A stretch of 33,000 nucleotides of DNA, taken from IMG/VR virus record IMGVR_UViG_3300025818_000094, positions 1-33,000 of that record, one strand, 5' to 3'. The stretch is from a virus. The translations under genes and the position numbers were made by a program. This document shows positions 26,965 through 33,000 of the stretch, piece by piece; position 1 is the first letter of the stretch; the number at the start of each line of letters is the position of its first letter. The notes beneath the pieces were generated by a model. It did no database searches, had not been told where the DNA came from, and worked only from the letters and a program-made list of their open reading frames with translations.

Positions 26965-27786
26965 ATGCCATTAGGTGCAGCTAGATTTGCTTTAGGTGGA
27001 GGTGCTAAACCAGATTTAATGGTTGCAACTCTTATTGTTGCAGGTGGTGCAGGTGGTGGTTATGGTAATGACGCTGCTGGCGGTGGCGGTGCAGGAGGTT
27101 ATCGTACATTTTCAGAAACATTATTAGTTGGTGATACAAACTATACAACTTATGTTGGTGCAGCAGGTAGCGCAGGTGGCAACGGAAACAACACACATTT
27201 TAATGGCAATCAAACATCTTACGGTGGTGCAGGTCGTGCTAACTCAAATGGTAACGCAGGTGGTTCAGGTGGCGGTGCAGGTTGGCAAGGTCAAACTGGT
27301 GGTGCAGGTAATGTAGGTGGCTATTCTCCTGCTGAAGGTAAAAATGGTGGTAACGTTTATTACGCAGGAAGTGGCGGTGGAGGTGCTTCACAAGTTGGAG
27401 GTTTTAGTGGTACTTCAGGTGGTAATGGCGGTAATGGTTCACAATGGCTAGATGGGAATTACTACGCAGGCGGTGGCGGTGGTGGCGCTGACTACTATCG
27501 TTCAGGTAACAATGTTCAATCACAAGGTGGAATTGGTGGTGGTGGAAAAGGACAAGGTAATAATCAAGGGCAAGCAGGAACTGCTAACACAGGTGGCGGT
27601 GGTGGTGGCTCTCGTTCACATGTAGACAAAGCACATTTTCCTGGAGGTTCTGGAGTTGTAGGATTTAGGTATCCTAAACAATGGACTTTAAATGCTAACA
27701 CAGTAACTTTATCTGCTGAAACTGTAAGTGGTGATTATAAATTTTGCTATGTTACTGGTGGTAGCGGTTCAGTTTATTGGAATTAA
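26965..27786 (+). CDS. Glycine-rich tail adhesin
   Basis: A 273 aa protein with ATG 26965 and AGGAG upstream. A short N-terminal beta segment (PDLMVATLIVAGGAGGG) is followed by about 170 residues of interrupted poly-glycine (GGGGGGADYY, GGNGGNGS, GGIGGGGKGQG, GGGGGGSRS) and a closing GVVGFRYPKQW plus a beta C-terminus ending GSVYWN. Glycine-rich runs of this kind form stacked polyglycine-II helices in phage adhesins such as that at the fibre tip of S16; the loops between runs determine receptor choice. It is probably the receptor-binding tip protein here. Confidence 0.7.
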   Translation: MPLGAARFALGGGAKPDLMVATLIVAGGAGGGYGNDAAGGGGAGGYRTFSETLLVGDTNYTTYVGAAGSAGGNGNNTHFNGNQTSYGGAGRANSNGNAGGSGGGAGWQGQTGGAGNVGGYSPAEGKNGGNVYYAGSGGGGASQVGGFSGTSGGNGGNGSQWLDGNYYAGGGGGGADYYRSGNNVQSQGGIGGGGKGQGNNQGQAGTANTGGGGGGSRSHVDKAHFPGGSGVVGFRYPKQWTLNANTVTLSAETVSGDYKFCYVTGGSGSVYWN

Positions 27787-27787
27787 A

Positions 27788-28207
27788 ATGGCACATTATG
27801 CATTTATAGATGAAAACAACATAGTTACACAAGTAATTGTAGGTAACGATGAAAATACATCTGTACCTGAAGGTTTTGATACATGGGAAAGTTATTACGA
27901 AAGTTTAGATTGGCATACAGGAACTTGTATTAGAACATCTTACAACACATATAAAAACACACACTTAAATGGTGGAACACCTTTTCGTGGTAATTACGCA
28001 GGTTTAGGTTTTAAATACGATAGTGTTAATGATGTATTTTATGAACAACAACCTTATCCTAGTTGGACATTAGATACTTCTACTTGGACTTGGCAACCAC
28101 CAACTCCATATCCTACATTAACACAAGAACAATTAGAAGCAGATGAAGTAACATCATACGAGTGGAACGAAAATACTACAAATTGGGTGCAAAGAACTCC
28201 AAGTTAG
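27788..28207 (+). CDS. Tail-fibre-associated protein of a marine phage type
   Basis: A 139 aa protein with ATG 27788 directly after the adhesin stop and a weak GGA upstream; an in-frame start at 27728 would overlap the adhesin and is not preferred. It begins MAHYAFIDENNIVTQVIVGND and contains WHTGTCIRTSYNTYKNTHLNGG with GNYAGLGFKYD and a Trp/Pro-rich end (WTWQPPTPYP). Proteins with this beginning and the TSYNT-x-GGxP-RxNYAG pattern are common in cyanophages and other marine phages, usually next to fibre genes, with unknown function. The family recollection is not checked. Confidence 0.7.
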   Translation: MAHYAFIDENNIVTQVIVGNDENTSVPEGFDTWESYYESLDWHTGTCIRTSYNTYKNTHLNGGTPFRGNYAGLGFKYDSVNDVFYEQQPYPSWTLDTSTWTWQPPTPYPTLTQEQLEADEVTSYEWNENTTNWVQRTPS

Positions 28208-28237: not shown

Positions 28238-28924
28238 ATGACAGATCTGTATTGGTTTTTATTACAAAAAGAAGACTTGCCTCCTCATCAATTATATAAT
28301 GATCCTTCAATACAAGATACATTTATTAATGTATGTCCACAAACTATTGCATTAGATAAAAGAACAGTTGTTATTACAATGCCATACGATTTAAAAATGC
28401 ATAGACAAGAAGATGGTTCTTATTATGCACAATCTAAACAAATAGTAGGAAAAAATTTGTGGGACGAAAGACCTGTTTTATCTATTGATACAGATACAAA
28501 AATAAAAGGTTATGAAGAATATTCTATATGTCATATAAAAGTTCCTTATGTTTTTATGACAGACAATAAAGATTTAACTTATTACTGGACTGGACCTAAA
28601 AGTAATACTGAACATAATATTAAAGGTGTAATGTTTGCAGAAGGAATGTTGTATCCAGGACAATATGCTAGAAGTTTAGATATGGCATTTATAATTCCAC
28701 ACGACAGACAAGTTGTATTTAAAAAAGGAGAACCATTGGGTTATTTATATTTTAGTGATGAAATAAACCTTAAAGAAATATTGCCTAATGAAGCAGTATT
28801 AAACTATATTAATTCTATATACGGTATTACAAGCTACGTTAAAGGTGTAAATAAAATTTTTAAAAGGGCAAAAAATAGATATCCGTACAAAGAGTTAGAG
28901 AAATGTGAGGTAGTAAATGTTTAA
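28238..28924 (+). CDS. Halogenase-companion protein A (DUF6065-like)
   Basis: A 228 aa protein with ATG 28238 and AAAGGAT upstream. It begins MTDLYWFLLQKEDLPPHQ. A CPQTIALDKRTVVITMPYDLKM segment and a KKGEPLGYLYFSDE segment correspond in order to CPSFTDIFYNGYVIPAHCDMYF and KQGEPLCYYVPFKRE in the gene at 30052, so the two appear to be distant paralogues with a beta-sandwich or cupin-like pattern. Such proteins occur beside halogenases in marine phages; I recall the label DUF6065 but am not certain of it. The function is unknown; substrate binding or carrier presentation for the halogenase is a guess. It overlaps the next gene by 8 nt. Confidence 0.7.
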   Translation: MTDLYWFLLQKEDLPPHQLYNDPSIQDTFINVCPQTIALDKRTVVITMPYDLKMHRQEDGSYYAQSKQIVGKNLWDERPVLSIDTDTKIKGYEEYSICHIKVPYVFMTDNKDLTYYWTGPKSNTEHNIKGVMFAEGMLYPGQYARSLDMAFIIPHDRQVVFKKGEPLGYLYFSDEINLKEILPNEAVLNYINSIYGITSYVKGVNKIFKRAKNRYPYKELEKCEVVNV

Positions 28925-30059
28925 ATTAGCAGTTATAGGGAAAGGTACAGCAGGATCATTATCATATAATCACTTTGCACATTACACAGATTGGGAAGTA
29001 GAATGTTATTACGATACATTATCACAAGAACAATCAGTAGGTGAAGGAACAACTGTTACGTTACCTAGAACTTTACATTACACATTAGGTTTTGAGTTTT
29101 ATCAAATGAAAAAATTTAATGGTAACTACAAAAACGGAATACATTATATTGATTGGGTAGATGAAAACTACATGCACACATTTCCTGCACCAGACATATC
29201 AATGCACTTTAGTGCTGTTGATTTACAAAGATACATAGCAGAAAAAAATAAAAACAGAGTTAAATTTAAAGATATTAAAGTTAATAATGTATATGACATA
29301 GACGCAGATTATATTATTGATTGTTCTGGAACACCAAACAAATTTGATGATTTTCAATTTGCTAAGTACATACCTGTAAATACTGCTTATGTTAGACAGT
29401 GTAATTGGAATTTTCCTAAATATGATTACACTATTTGCATTGCAGCAGAGTGGGGTTGGATATTTGGAATACCATTATCAAACAGAATGTCATGGGGTTA
29501 TATGTACAATCAACAGATTACAGATCATAATGTTGCTAAAGAACAATTACTTGAAGTTATTGATAACTATGGTATGAAACCTACAGATCAAGAAAACAGA
29601 TTAGACTTTAATAATTATTACCGCAAAGAAAACTTTTTTGACAAAATTGCATACAATGGTAATGCTTCTTTCTTTTTAGAACCTATGGAAGCTACATCAT
29701 TAACTACTGTAGATAATATTAATAGAAAAATATATGACGCAATAGTTAACAAAGAGAGTATTGGAGAACATAACGAGTGGTATACAAGAACATTTAAAGA
29801 GCTACAAGATATTATTGTTATGCACTATTTAGGTGCAAGTAAATATGACAATGAATTTTGGACGTACGCTAAAAAATTAGCAACAGAATGTTTATCTGAT
29901 AATGACTTAACTAGAAAACAATATACAGAAATATTAGATAATATAAATAATATTGGGTTTGATCTTGTGTATGATTATGGCGTTTGGCGTATGCACAGCT
30001 TTAATCAAAATATAAATTCATTAGGCATATTAAAAAAATTAAAGGAGTTAAATGTTTAA
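28917..30059 (+). CDS. Flavin-dependent tryptophan-halogenase-like enzyme
   Basis: A 380 aa flavoprotein. GxGxxG FAD-binding motif at 8-13 (GKGTAG), SVGEGT at 40-45, and the catalytic Lys of the family conserved in GNYKNGIHYIDW (K72, aligning with PrnA K79). W-x-W-x-I-P appears as W181-I-F-G-I-P186 (second Trp replaced by Phe). The catalytic Glu lies in FLEPMEATSL (E258, aligning with PrnA E346). All key chemistry is therefore present, though the protein is shorter than bacterial enzymes (about 510-540 aa). Established family chemistry is FADH2- and O2-dependent halide oxidation and transfer to an electron-rich ring; the substrate here is unknown. No flavin reductase is encoded nearby. It overlaps both neighbours by 8 nt, forming one translational unit. 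Confidence 0.85.
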   Translation: MFKLAVIGKGTAGSLSYNHFAHYTDWEVECYYDTLSQEQSVGEGTTVTLPRTLHYTLGFEFYQMKKFNGNYKNGIHYIDWVDENYMHTFPAPDISMHFSAVDLQRYIAEKNKNRVKFKDIKVNNVYDIDADYIIDCSGTPNKFDDFQFAKYIPVNTAYVRQCNWNFPKYDYTICIAAEWGWIFGIPLSNRMSWGYMYNQQITDHNVAKEQLLEVIDNYGMKPTDQENRLDFNNYYRKENFFDKIAYNGNASFFLEPMEATSLTTVDNINRKIYDAIVNKESIGEHNEWYTRTFKELQDIIVMHYLGASKYDNEFWTYAKKLATECLSDNDLTRKQYTEILDNINNIGFDLVYDYGVWRMHSFNQNINSLGILKKLKELNV

Positions 30060-30762
30060 GAAAAAAAATAAACCAACATTAAAATTTAGCACACCGTTTG
30101 TAGGGTTGGAAAACATAGATAGTTGCAGACCACAACCTGCTAAAAATTTTATTCCTAAATGGTATACAGATATGCCACCTACGCCACATGATGAACACTA
30201 TACAAAATTAATTCCGCAAACTAAAACAATAAAGTTATGTCCTAGTTTTACAGATATTTTTTATAACGGATATGTTATACCTGCACATTGTGATATGTAT
30301 TTTAGGTGGGAGGAAGGTGGCGAATGGGAATGGGCTACATCATTTGAGGAGTATGAAATACAATTACATCACGATAAACAAATGAAAGATTACGTTCCTA
30401 GTAGTGCAAACATACAAAAAGTATTTAAAATTATATCGGCATGGCGTATGATGACACCACCTGGATATAGTGTGTATCAAGTTCCATTACTTTACCATTA
30501 CAATCCAGATTGGTATATACCTTATGGCGTTATACATACAGATAAACATCATATATTAAATCAACAATTAGTTATTACTGCTGATAAAAAGAAACAAATT
30601 ATGATAAAACAAGGTGAACCATTATGTTATTATGTGCCATTTAAAAGAGAAGAATTTGATTTAGAAATAGAAACTTGGTCGCAAGAATGGGAAGATAAAT
30701 GCAGAGAAAATTTGTTTCGTGTACACTCAAAATTTAAAGGTGGTTACTTAAAAAATATATGA
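30052..30762 (+). CDS. Halogenase-companion protein B (DUF6065-like)
   Basis: A 236 aa protein with ATG 30052, AAGGAG 6 nt upstream, and an 8-nt overlap with the halogenase gene. It begins MFKKKNKPTLKFSTPF and has a basic N-terminus, KLCPSFTDIFYNGYVIP, an aromatic W-rich centre (WEEGGEWEWATSFEEYE), a PPGYSVYQVPLLYHYNPDWYIPYG segment and KQGEPLCYYVPFKREEF near the end. It is related by pattern to the 228 aa protein on the other side of the halogenase. The function is unknown; co-translation with the halogenase argues for a joint role. Confidence 0.72.
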   Translation: MFKKKNKPTLKFSTPFVGLENIDSCRPQPAKNFIPKWYTDMPPTPHDEHYTKLIPQTKTIKLCPSFTDIFYNGYVIPAHCDMYFRWEEGGEWEWATSFEEYEIQLHHDKQMKDYVPSSANIQKVFKIISAWRMMTPPGYSVYQVPLLYHYNPDWYIPYGVIHTDKHHILNQQLVITADKKKQIMIKQGEPLCYYVPFKREEFDLEIETWSQEWEDKCRENLFRVHSKFKGGYLKNI

Positions 30763-31107: not shown

Positions 31108-31380
31108 ATGCAAGGTTACTCTTTATATTGGAATATATCTAAACGCATGATTGCTGTATTTATAGCACAAGCATTAAGTGTTATAGGTGCAGGATCACTT
31201 GTAGGTATTGATGTTATACAATCATCATTACTTGCAGGTCTATTAGGTGTAGCTAATGTACTAGAAATACTTGCTAGAAAATATCTCAATGATGGCAAAC
31301 TTACAATCGAGGAAGTCAATCAAGCATTTGGTATTTTAGATAGCAAGACACATAATGATATGAATGGGAGAGAAATATAA
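31108..31380 (+). CDS. Holin-like protein with EF-hand-like tail
   Basis: A 90 aa protein with two hydrophobic segments (about 14-35 and 38-55: MIAVFIAQALSVIGAGSLVG, then SSLLAGLLGVANVLEILA) and a C-terminal NDGKLTIEEVNQAF, which has the DGxLT-x-EE pattern of an EF-hand-like loop. I recall this membrane domain plus DGKLTxEE tail from holins of actinobacteriophages, which supports an actinobacterial host. It should permeabilise the host membrane at lysis. It overlaps the Cys-rich micropeptide start (TAATG). No endolysin is present next to it in the window. Confidence 0.65.
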   Translation: MQGYSLYWNISKRMIAVFIAQALSVIGAGSLVGIDVIQSSLLAGLLGVANVLEILARKYLNDGKLTIEEVNQAFGILDSKTHNDMNGREI

Positions 31381-31424: not shown

Positions 31425-31430
31425 GTTCCG
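31412..31430 (+). promoter_or_regulatory. Hairpin overlapping micropeptide stop and next start codon
   Basis: CGGAACT (31412-31418) and AGTTCCG (31424-31430) form a perfect 7-bp stem with an AAGTA loop. The 3' arm includes the first G of the GTG at 31430. There is no following T run, so a terminator is unlikely; translational coupling is more plausible. Confidence 0.5.
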
Positions 31431-33000
31431 TGTTACACAAATTTAATACACTTGTTCGCTTATGTATTGTTGCGTTCTTAATAATTCCTTTTCCTGTATT
31501 GGCAAATCACGTACCTACACAAACACCATACGATATATCTATTGCTTGTGATAGTGATGGAGACAAAACTAAAGGTGACATAACTGTTACATGGCAAGAG
31601 AGTGATGGTTTTGAAGATAGTCCACCTGAACGATACGCTATAGCATTTAGTAATGATAACTTTGTAGAAACTAATTATGCAGTAGCTAACAGTACTGGTT
31701 GGGAAGAAGCATTGTCTTATAAGAGTTATGTTTTTACTGCTAGTTATAGAGAAAATATATTTGGTACAACAGCAGATACATTTTATGCAAAAGTTAGAGC
31801 AGACAATGACACAGACGCTAGTTATTCTGAATGGACAAGTGTTGTAAGCATTGATTGTGATTATGGTTCTACCACAACTACTACAACAACCACAACTACT
31901 ACTACAACTTTGCCACCTCCACCACCTCCACCACCACCTCCACCACCTGAACCAGAAAAGGTTGAGGTCGTAATGGAAGATGGTTCTAAAGCAGAATATG
32001 AAACTTATGAAGTAGAAGATGGCACAGTAGATCGTGATAATCAGCGTAAAGCTAATGAAGAAGCGTATGGTTGTTACATGACAGACGCACAAATAGAACG
32101 TGGTGATTGTGACATACCTAAAGAAGAAGAAGTAGTAGAAGAAAAAGAAGAAGAAGTTATAATAAAAGAAGATGAAAAAGAACAACCAGATACCAAAGAA
32201 ATCATTTCTGATGATGATGTTGTGGTACCTGAAGTGGTCGTTGAAGATAAAGATGAGGATCCTATTGATGAACCTAAAGAGGAAGTTATAGAAGATGAGT
32301 TGGATCAAGAGATACCAGGAGATGACGACATCAGAGAAGAGGGAGTTCAAGAGGAAGATGACAAAGACCAGGATAATAAAGAAGAAGAAATAAAAGAGGA
32401 GGAAGAAGTTGAAGAGACAAAAGAGATCATACTCGAACCAGAAGAAGAGACAGAAAAATTTGAAGGGCAAACTGTACAAGATGTTGTAGAAGACATAAAG
32501 GAAGTAGAGGTAGAAGAACTTGAAACAGAGCAAGTTATCGAAGTACTTACTGAAGTTGCTGATGTCGGAGTGGAGAATCTTACAGAAGTTAGCGAAGATG
32601 TACTTGAAGTTGTAAGTCAGGTAGTAGAACAATCTATACAAAAAGCAGAAGAATTAACTGAAGAGCAAGTAGAAGTAGTTGCAACTGTACTTAATTTAGA
32701 AGATAAGAATGACGTAAAGATTATAGCTGAAGCTGTAAAAAATGACGAAGCAGTGGCAGAAGCTGTTGAAGAATATGTAAAACGTGCAGTAGAAAACAAC
32801 GATGTAGAAGATTACACACTTGCTGATGTTGTGACAGAGATACAAACTGAACAATTCCTTGCAGATCCTATTGGTGCATTTACTGATATAAATATACAAG
32901 AGATAGATCTAGGTGCTATTGGTAACGATATGACTAACGATCAAAAAGAAAAAGCACAAGAGGTTGTAGTACCAGTTATCATAGCTTCGCAAATTGTGGC
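31430..33000 (+). CDS. Secreted Thr/Pro-rich acidic surface protein (3' end outside window)
   Basis: The frame opens at GTG 31430 and stays open to the window end (523 codons seen). Signal peptide: MLHKFNTLVRLC, hydrophobic core IVAFLIIPFPVLA, cleavage after A25 (VLA-N). Residues about 26-146 form a beta domain like a fibronectin type III module, with DISIACDSDG, ITVTWQESDG and FYAKVRADND and a closing VSIDC. Then 13 Thr (148-160), Leu, 12 Pro (162-173), a Glu/Asp-rich stretch (about 220-345), and helical segments (VEVVATVLN, AVAEAVEEYVKRAV) ending VVVPVIIASQIV. Thr-run plus Pro-run linkers are typical of actinobacterial cell-wall proteins. It may act at the host envelope (lysis, exclusion) or be a virion part; the role is unknown. 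Confidence 0.75.
   Translation, partial: MLHKFNTLVRLCIVAFLIIPFPVLANHVPTQTPYDISIACDSDGDKTKGDITVTWQESDGFEDSPPERYAIAFSNDNFVETNYAVANSTGWEEALSYKSYVFTASYRENIFGTTADTFYAKVRADNDTDASYSEWTSVVSIDCDYGSTTTTTTTTTTTTTLPPPPPPPPPPPPEPEKVEVVMEDGSKAEYETYEVEDGTVDRDNQRKANEEAYGCYMTDAQIERGDCDIPKEEEVVEEKEEEVIIKEDEKEQPDTKEIISDDDVVVPEVVVEDKDEDPIDEPKEEVIEDELDQEIPGDDDIREEGVQEEDDKDQDNKEEEIKEEEEVEETKEIILEPEEETEKFEGQTVQDVVEDIKEVEVEELETEQVIEVLTEVADVGVENLTEVSEDVLEVVSQVVEQSIQKAEELTEEQVEVVATVLNLEDKNDVKIIAEAVKNDEAVAEAVEEYVKRAVENNDVEDYTLADVVTEIQTEQFLADPIGAFTDINIQEIDLGAIGNDMTNDQKEKAQEVVVPVIIASQIV

Follow-up and report, generated by a model that had tools for sequence, protein, structure and literature searches.

What does a phage gain from a halogenase that is wedged between two overlapping genes of related kind, and are the products of these genes partners of the enzyme or mere neighbours? 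This question is raised by a trio of genes—companion A, halogenase B, and companion C—in a marine phage. The window, i.e., the whole stretch of DNA analysed, has a length of 33,000 nucleotides and represents an entire 33-kb viral record, in which genes for terminase, portal, and major head proteins are present.

Organization of the trio locus

The trio consists of three ORFs on the + strand: companion A (28238..28924; 228 aa), the compact flavin-dependent halogenase B (28917..30059; 380 aa), and companion C (30052..30762; 236 aa). Each neighbouring pair overlaps by 8 nt, namely ATGTTTAA at 28917..28924 (+) between A and B and again ATGTTTAA at 30052..30059 (+) between B and C, which confirms the trio described in the sequence-only reading as co-oriented, overlapping ORFs. 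The two junctions are near-identical (AAATGTTTAA) and feature an SD-like GAGG or AAGGAG upstream; the AAGGAG of the B/C junction is located 4 nt ahead of the ATG. As judged by these sequence features, A, B, and C are likely to undergo coupled translation. A scan for promoters and terminators remained at chance level. The trio occurs in the same order in related viral contigs at identities of 84–93%, 65–77%, and 53–64%, and the conservation of all three ORFs down to 53–65% identity marks them as real genes. Upstream of the trio lies a conserved gene for a glycine-rich fibre-type protein (Gly_rich_2; 26965..27786, +; PF21722, 2.2e-13), so that the claimed placement beside a fibre gene holds, and further a W/Y-rich small protein (phrog_7759; 27788..28207, +; 5.9e-36). 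Many fibre loci carry the latter in this position, whether they contain a halogenase or not. Lysis genes downstream of the trio are plausible.

Predicted structure and catalytic residues of the compact halogenase

B belongs to PF04820 (8e-36; 124 bits versus a curated cut-off of 21) and to phrog_2928 (5.6e-64) and has sequence matches to solved halogenases in the PDB. The AlphaFold2 model features a pLDDT of 93.7 and a pTM of 0.91, and each of the 50 best matches in the PDB is a flavin halogenase (TMq 0.72–0.82); the comparison with PrnA and RebH proposed beforehand thus yields a predicted fold that matches FDH structures. In the profile alignment, K72 (codon 29130..29132, +) aligns with the catalytic K79 of PrnA and E258 (codon 29688..29690, +) with the catalytic E346; the E346D mutant of PrnA, which is part of the PDB set, falls in the same column as E258. 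The GxGxxG motif is present as G8-K-G10-T-A-G13. The catalytic Lys, the Glu, and the FAD motif that had been read from the sequence are therefore borne out. The strict WxWxIP motif is not found: B reads W-I-F-G-I-P at W181-x-F183-x-I185-P186 (29457..29474, +), with a Phe for the second Trp throughout the compact family, as judged by alignments. B is, hence, a variant and not a canonical FDH member. The residue following E258 is an Ala (A259), where PrnA carries S347. Across 56 compact viral relatives, K72, E258, W181, F183, and A259 are invariant, and the I/P pair and GxGxxG are kept as well. Accordingly, the earlier assignment of B as an active-type FAD halogenase gains support at the sequence level from the invariance of K72 and E258, and the chemistry is likely the same as for PrnA, RebH, and VirX1.

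The bacterial tryptophan halogenases PrnA, RebH, and PyrH act in known biosynthetic clusters. They share with B the fold (TMq 0.74–0.82), the catalytic Lys and Glu, and GxGxxG, but they are longer by approximately 150 residues and carry a true WxWxIP. For most of the bacterial enzymes listed from the PDB, the length is 497–554 aa. The shortening of B occurs in two parts in the alignment with PrnA: approximately 70–75 residues are lost between positions 81 and 113, and the tail at the C-terminus is missing. Regions building the Trp pocket of PrnA are largely missing from this alignment. The loss of both parts suggests an open active site in B that may be suited to a large substrate. The difference in length had been stated correctly, but the compact viral family shares it as a whole: at least 551 loci with relatives of B were found in one scan of viral contigs, lengths of approximately 358–416 aa are common, and shortness is thus not peculiar to this phage. 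When 84,980 species genomes of cellular organisms were scanned with conserved patterns, four weak loci came up; as far as these patterns reach, the compact family thus seems almost confined to viruses. Cyanophage PrnA genes of 1104–1167 nt are already contained in tables from 2010 (PMC3037559).

Compact "tryptophan halogenases" of the cyanophages S-RIM4, S-ShM2, S-SSM7, and Sf-CH8 (T4-GC 212) feature the architecture of B at 29–45% identity; unlike B, they have no adjacent companion. VirX1 of cyanophage Syn10 (PDB 6QGM) is to our knowledge the only viral halogenase that has been examined experimentally. It resembles B in its PF04820-type fold, its catalytic Lys/Glu pair, its viral origin, and an overlapping companion gene of the C superfamily that follows it, but it has a length of 530 aa and an identity of approximately 24% over 230 residues. 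Furthermore, syn9 gp42 (VirX1) retains GWVWNIP, whereas B has the Phe at the second Trp, and the two are not monophyletic but sit on separate branches with 100/100 support.

Several compact relatives show peculiarities of their own. The enzyme of S-SSM7 (L017, 5001–6104) carries a Gln at the position of the catalytic Glu (FLEPIQATSL) and is possibly inactive. A tandem pair of compact halogenase genes occurs in L043, L067, and L069–L073, and at related loci, a BPL_N/glutamine-amidotransferase-like protein (L059) and a carbamoyltransferase (L071 and L085) are among the neighbours.

Companions A and C as one superfamily

A and C had been regarded as divergent copies of one family. Their pairwise comparison gives no detectable similarity; it is the alignment of profiles that upholds the claim. 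A-type and C-type profiles, separately built and enriched with relatives, align in hhalign at 97.1% (E 1.8e-9), and intermediates from L082 and L093 align with both types at 97.5–98.0%. Sequence comparison of this kind supports A and C as distant paralogues of one superfamily—a relation visible only via intermediates or enriched profiles. A has orthologues in sister loci (84, 77, and 64% identity) and no match among phage records, and C belongs to phrog_7084 (2.4e-51). A relation of C to DUF6065 (PF19541) exists at the profile level, but the window proteins stay below the Pfam cut-off: A reaches 11.6 bits versus 26.6 (E 0.19), and C has no match to the Pfam profile. With hhalign, C aligns with bacterial DUF6065 at 93.7% (E 1.8e-7) and via HSTV2, S-RIM4, and L229 at 99.9%; A arrives directly at 37.9% only. 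The haloviral protein HSTV2_40 exceeds the Pfam cut-off and bridges the C-type proteins to DUF6065. Cys63 and Gly159 are invariant across all 35 companion members, and H106, Q110, and K126 are near-invariant in the C-type but lost in the A-type. A retains the invariant Cys-Pro and Gly, not the latter three residues, and this pattern hints at a functional site in C only. A collection scan could not be based on an alignment of eight diverse companions, as the divergence was too high.

The AlphaFold2 model of C (pLDDT 88.3; pTM 0.81) points to the dUTPase fold. The top 50 Foldseek matches in the PDB are all dUTPases or dCTP deaminases (best E 7.2e-4, probability 1.00), with TM scores normalised to the target of 0.24–0.65, and the model also matches related viral proteins in BFVD. 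Companions match PF00692 weakly (0.019; 5.4e-4 in the C protein of the related locus L039), and the match in the L039 protein covers GVIKSDY...GQPLA, which sets the register of motif 3. Neither the catalytic Asp and Tyr of this motif (GVIDxxY) nor PRSS of motif 2 is retained in C: the window protein reads GVIHTDK, and the position of the catalytic Asp varies between H, E, K, D, R, Y, and N across the family. A motif-5 tail was not recognised in C, and a PDB sequence search with C returned nothing credible. Because hhalign of sequence profiles found no link between C and dUTPase, the relation rests on the predicted fold together with the weak Pfam matches. Thus, C probably adopts the dUTPase fold but has no dUTPase activity. 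The companion of S-CREM1 is annotated as "triphosphate nucleotidohydrolase."

Variation in companion loci was observed in three further forms. The companion that follows the halogenase in L044, L050, and L062 has only 127–131 aa and is separated from it by a gap of 134–146 nt, the gene being shortened or split. In L112–L121, L168, and L169, up to four companions are arranged in tandem behind the fibre gene, and a halogenase is lacking. In L177 (6433–7368), a gene of the FtsZ family lies right after a companion pair.

Linkage of companions and halogenases

Two tblastn searches detected the companion in 17 cyanophage records—many of them near copies—and a halogenase is present in 17/17 as well. 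The companion is located immediately downstream of a VirX1-type halogenase in 14 of the 17, including Syn10, whose protein is 100% identical to the syn9 gp42 query over 530 aa (tblastn). It follows VirX1-type enzymes in S-CREM1, S-RIM44, Sf-FR1, P-TIM40, Sf-FP1, and Sf-CH3, and the overlap of the two genes amounts to 17 nt in syn9. In S-RIM4, Sf-CH5, and Sf-CH8, the companion and a compact halogenase are unlinked. Since halogenases occur in only 20 of 153 cyanophages according to a review (PMC10452541), full co-occurrence is unlikely to be a matter of chance. The recurrence of this type of companion beside VirX1-type enzymes supports the idea of a partner. In syn9, S-CREM1, S-RIM44, and P-TIM40, 2OG-Fe(II) oxygenases follow; they are also found beside related loci.

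Linkage was surveyed in both directions, with a bias toward relatives of the window's own proteins because those seeded the scans. From the side of the halogenase, an adjacent companion is present at 16 of 65 non-redundant loci. On a halogenase tree of 64 rows, the companion label is strongly clustered, with four changes versus a shuffled mean of 14.3. The clade of the window features an adjacent companion in 15/17 rows, mostly with overlaps of −4 to −23 nt, and L034, which is one of the two rows without an adjacent companion, is located close to the end of its contig. An adjacent companion is missing in all 45 other compact rows of the tree, which was counted against a partnership; syn9 gp42, far from the clade of the window, has one as well. 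L154 and L163 carry long halogenases one gene away from companions. From the side of the companion, a same-strand halogenase is present in 12 of 51 non-redundant loci, and two further loci have an opposite-strand halogenase next to the array; when 24 contigs whose arrays had no same-strand halogenase were searched over their whole length, these two were the only cases found. At least two companions occur in 32 of the 51 loci and the phrog_7759 protein in 34. No halogenase was seen in bacterial DUF6065 neighbourhoods (where ORF calling is crude at high GC) or near haloviral DUF6065 relatives. Approximately three quarters of the surveyed fibre-locus companion arrays are without a halogenase, and the companions thus have a role of their own and are not dedicated to it.

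The tight, coupled linkage proposed in the sequence-only reading is accordingly supported within the clade of the window, and the proposal of dedicated partners fails, since companions are absent beside other compact halogenases and most companion arrays have no halogenase. Companions missing beside most homologues had been named as the finding that would speak against the module: this is the case for the compact family as a whole and not for the clade of the window.

Possible function of the trio

In PrnA, RebH, and VirX1, FADH2, O2, and halide give rise to a hypohalite that reaches the substrate past the Lys and the Glu. The explanation we favour, tentatively and with somewhat less than an even chance of being right, is that of a compact active-type halogenase working late in infection with non-catalytic dUTPase-fold partners, a protein or another large aromatic molecule being a possible target. 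B would be translated together with A and C late in infection and bind FADH2 from host reductases; with O2 and halide, it would form hypohalite, which would travel past K72 and E258 to reach an aromatic ring rich in electrons. The conserved residues and the fold suggest this chemistry. A and C would most likely be partner subunits that bind or present the substrate, for which the coupling and the independent recurrence beside VirX1-type enzymes argue. A protein or another surface-linked aromatic would be favoured over a free amino acid as target, in view of the fibre-adjacent position, the 2OG oxygenases at related loci, and the regions missing from B. The Phe in place of the second Trp of WxWxIP was counted against this explanation. 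VirX1 is described as having a spacious, open active site and a wide substrate range, with many small aromatics but also large substrates accepted (PMC8407142). The W/Y-rich phrog_7759 neighbour was considered as substrate and finds no support, since its Trp content beside halogenases is not enriched (4.1% versus 4.3% otherwise).

Possible, though on balance doubtful, is that A and C are part of the ordinary cargo carried by a variable locus next to the fibre genes, e.g., tandem-duplicating tail or fibre accessory proteins, and that the halogenase is a separate passenger without functional link. Loci in which one to four companions occupy the same position between fibre and lysis genes and a halogenase is absent fit this, as do the compact halogenases, most of which have no neighbouring companion, and the haloviral and bacterial DUF6065 proteins with no halogenase nearby. 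It explains less readily why companions independently adjoin VirX1-type halogenases, a fully supported separate branch from the compact family, why long halogenases lie one gene from companions in two loci, and why every companion-bearing cyanophage record has a halogenase, in three of them unlinked. Production of a small halogenated metabolite during infection, e.g., from Trp, indole, or a host pigment, with companions that are unrelated or aid substrate supply, appears unlikely: neither a flavin reductase nor a transporter nor any other biosynthetic gene was recognised in the scanned genes of the window, the trio is fibre-adjacent, and the Trp-pocket regions of PrnA are largely absent from the alignment. 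B does have the fold and the catalytic pair of Trp/indole halogenases, chlorotryptophan production was suggested for S-CREM1 (PMC9964418), and VirX1 accepts many small aromatics as substrates (PMC8407142).

The loss of halogenation in a degenerate or repurposed FAD oxygenase would accord with the Phe found at the second Trp of WxWxIP throughout the compact family and with the S-SSM7 homologue that has no catalytic Glu; it is improbable given the invariance of K72/E258 in 56 relatives and the conservation of W181, I/P, and GxGxxG, which point to retained chemistry. Most improbable is a role of the companions in binding a pyrimidine nucleotide or base and presenting it to the halogenase, which would give 5-halopyrimidine nucleotides or halogenated nucleic acid. 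The predicted dUTPase fold of C lends this some support, and family members in HSTV-2 and S-RIM4 adjoin genes for thymidylate synthase and ribonucleotide reductase; the lost dUTPase motifs and the location of the module among fibre genes weaken it.

Relation to known viral halogenases and further genes of the window

Viral halogenases and short cyanophage versions of them are already known. Within a limited search, the parts of the phage halogenase literature covered make no mention of a companion and give no natural substrate of viral halogenases, VirX1 included, and DUF6065 is named in no paper found. A recurrent, probably coupled candidate partner of definable fold beside VirX1 offers a concrete handle on the natural role of viral halogenases. 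In addition, a dUTPase-like fold is suggested for DUF6065/phrog_7084, proteins of unknown function that are widespread in marine phages.

The phrog_7759 protein lies beside fibre genes in marine phages of Pelagibacter, Roseobacter, Methylophilales, and Synechococcus. Downstream of the trio, 31108–31380 encodes a protein of 90 aa with the doubtful label "nuclease" (phrog_26427), which looks membrane-associated and is possibly holin-like. The gene at 31430–32998, which runs off the window, encodes a large protein whose start resembles a signal peptide and which further contains a Thr tract, a Pro run, and a long region rich in Glu; proteins clustering with its product are found near the same place in approximately 44 survey loci.
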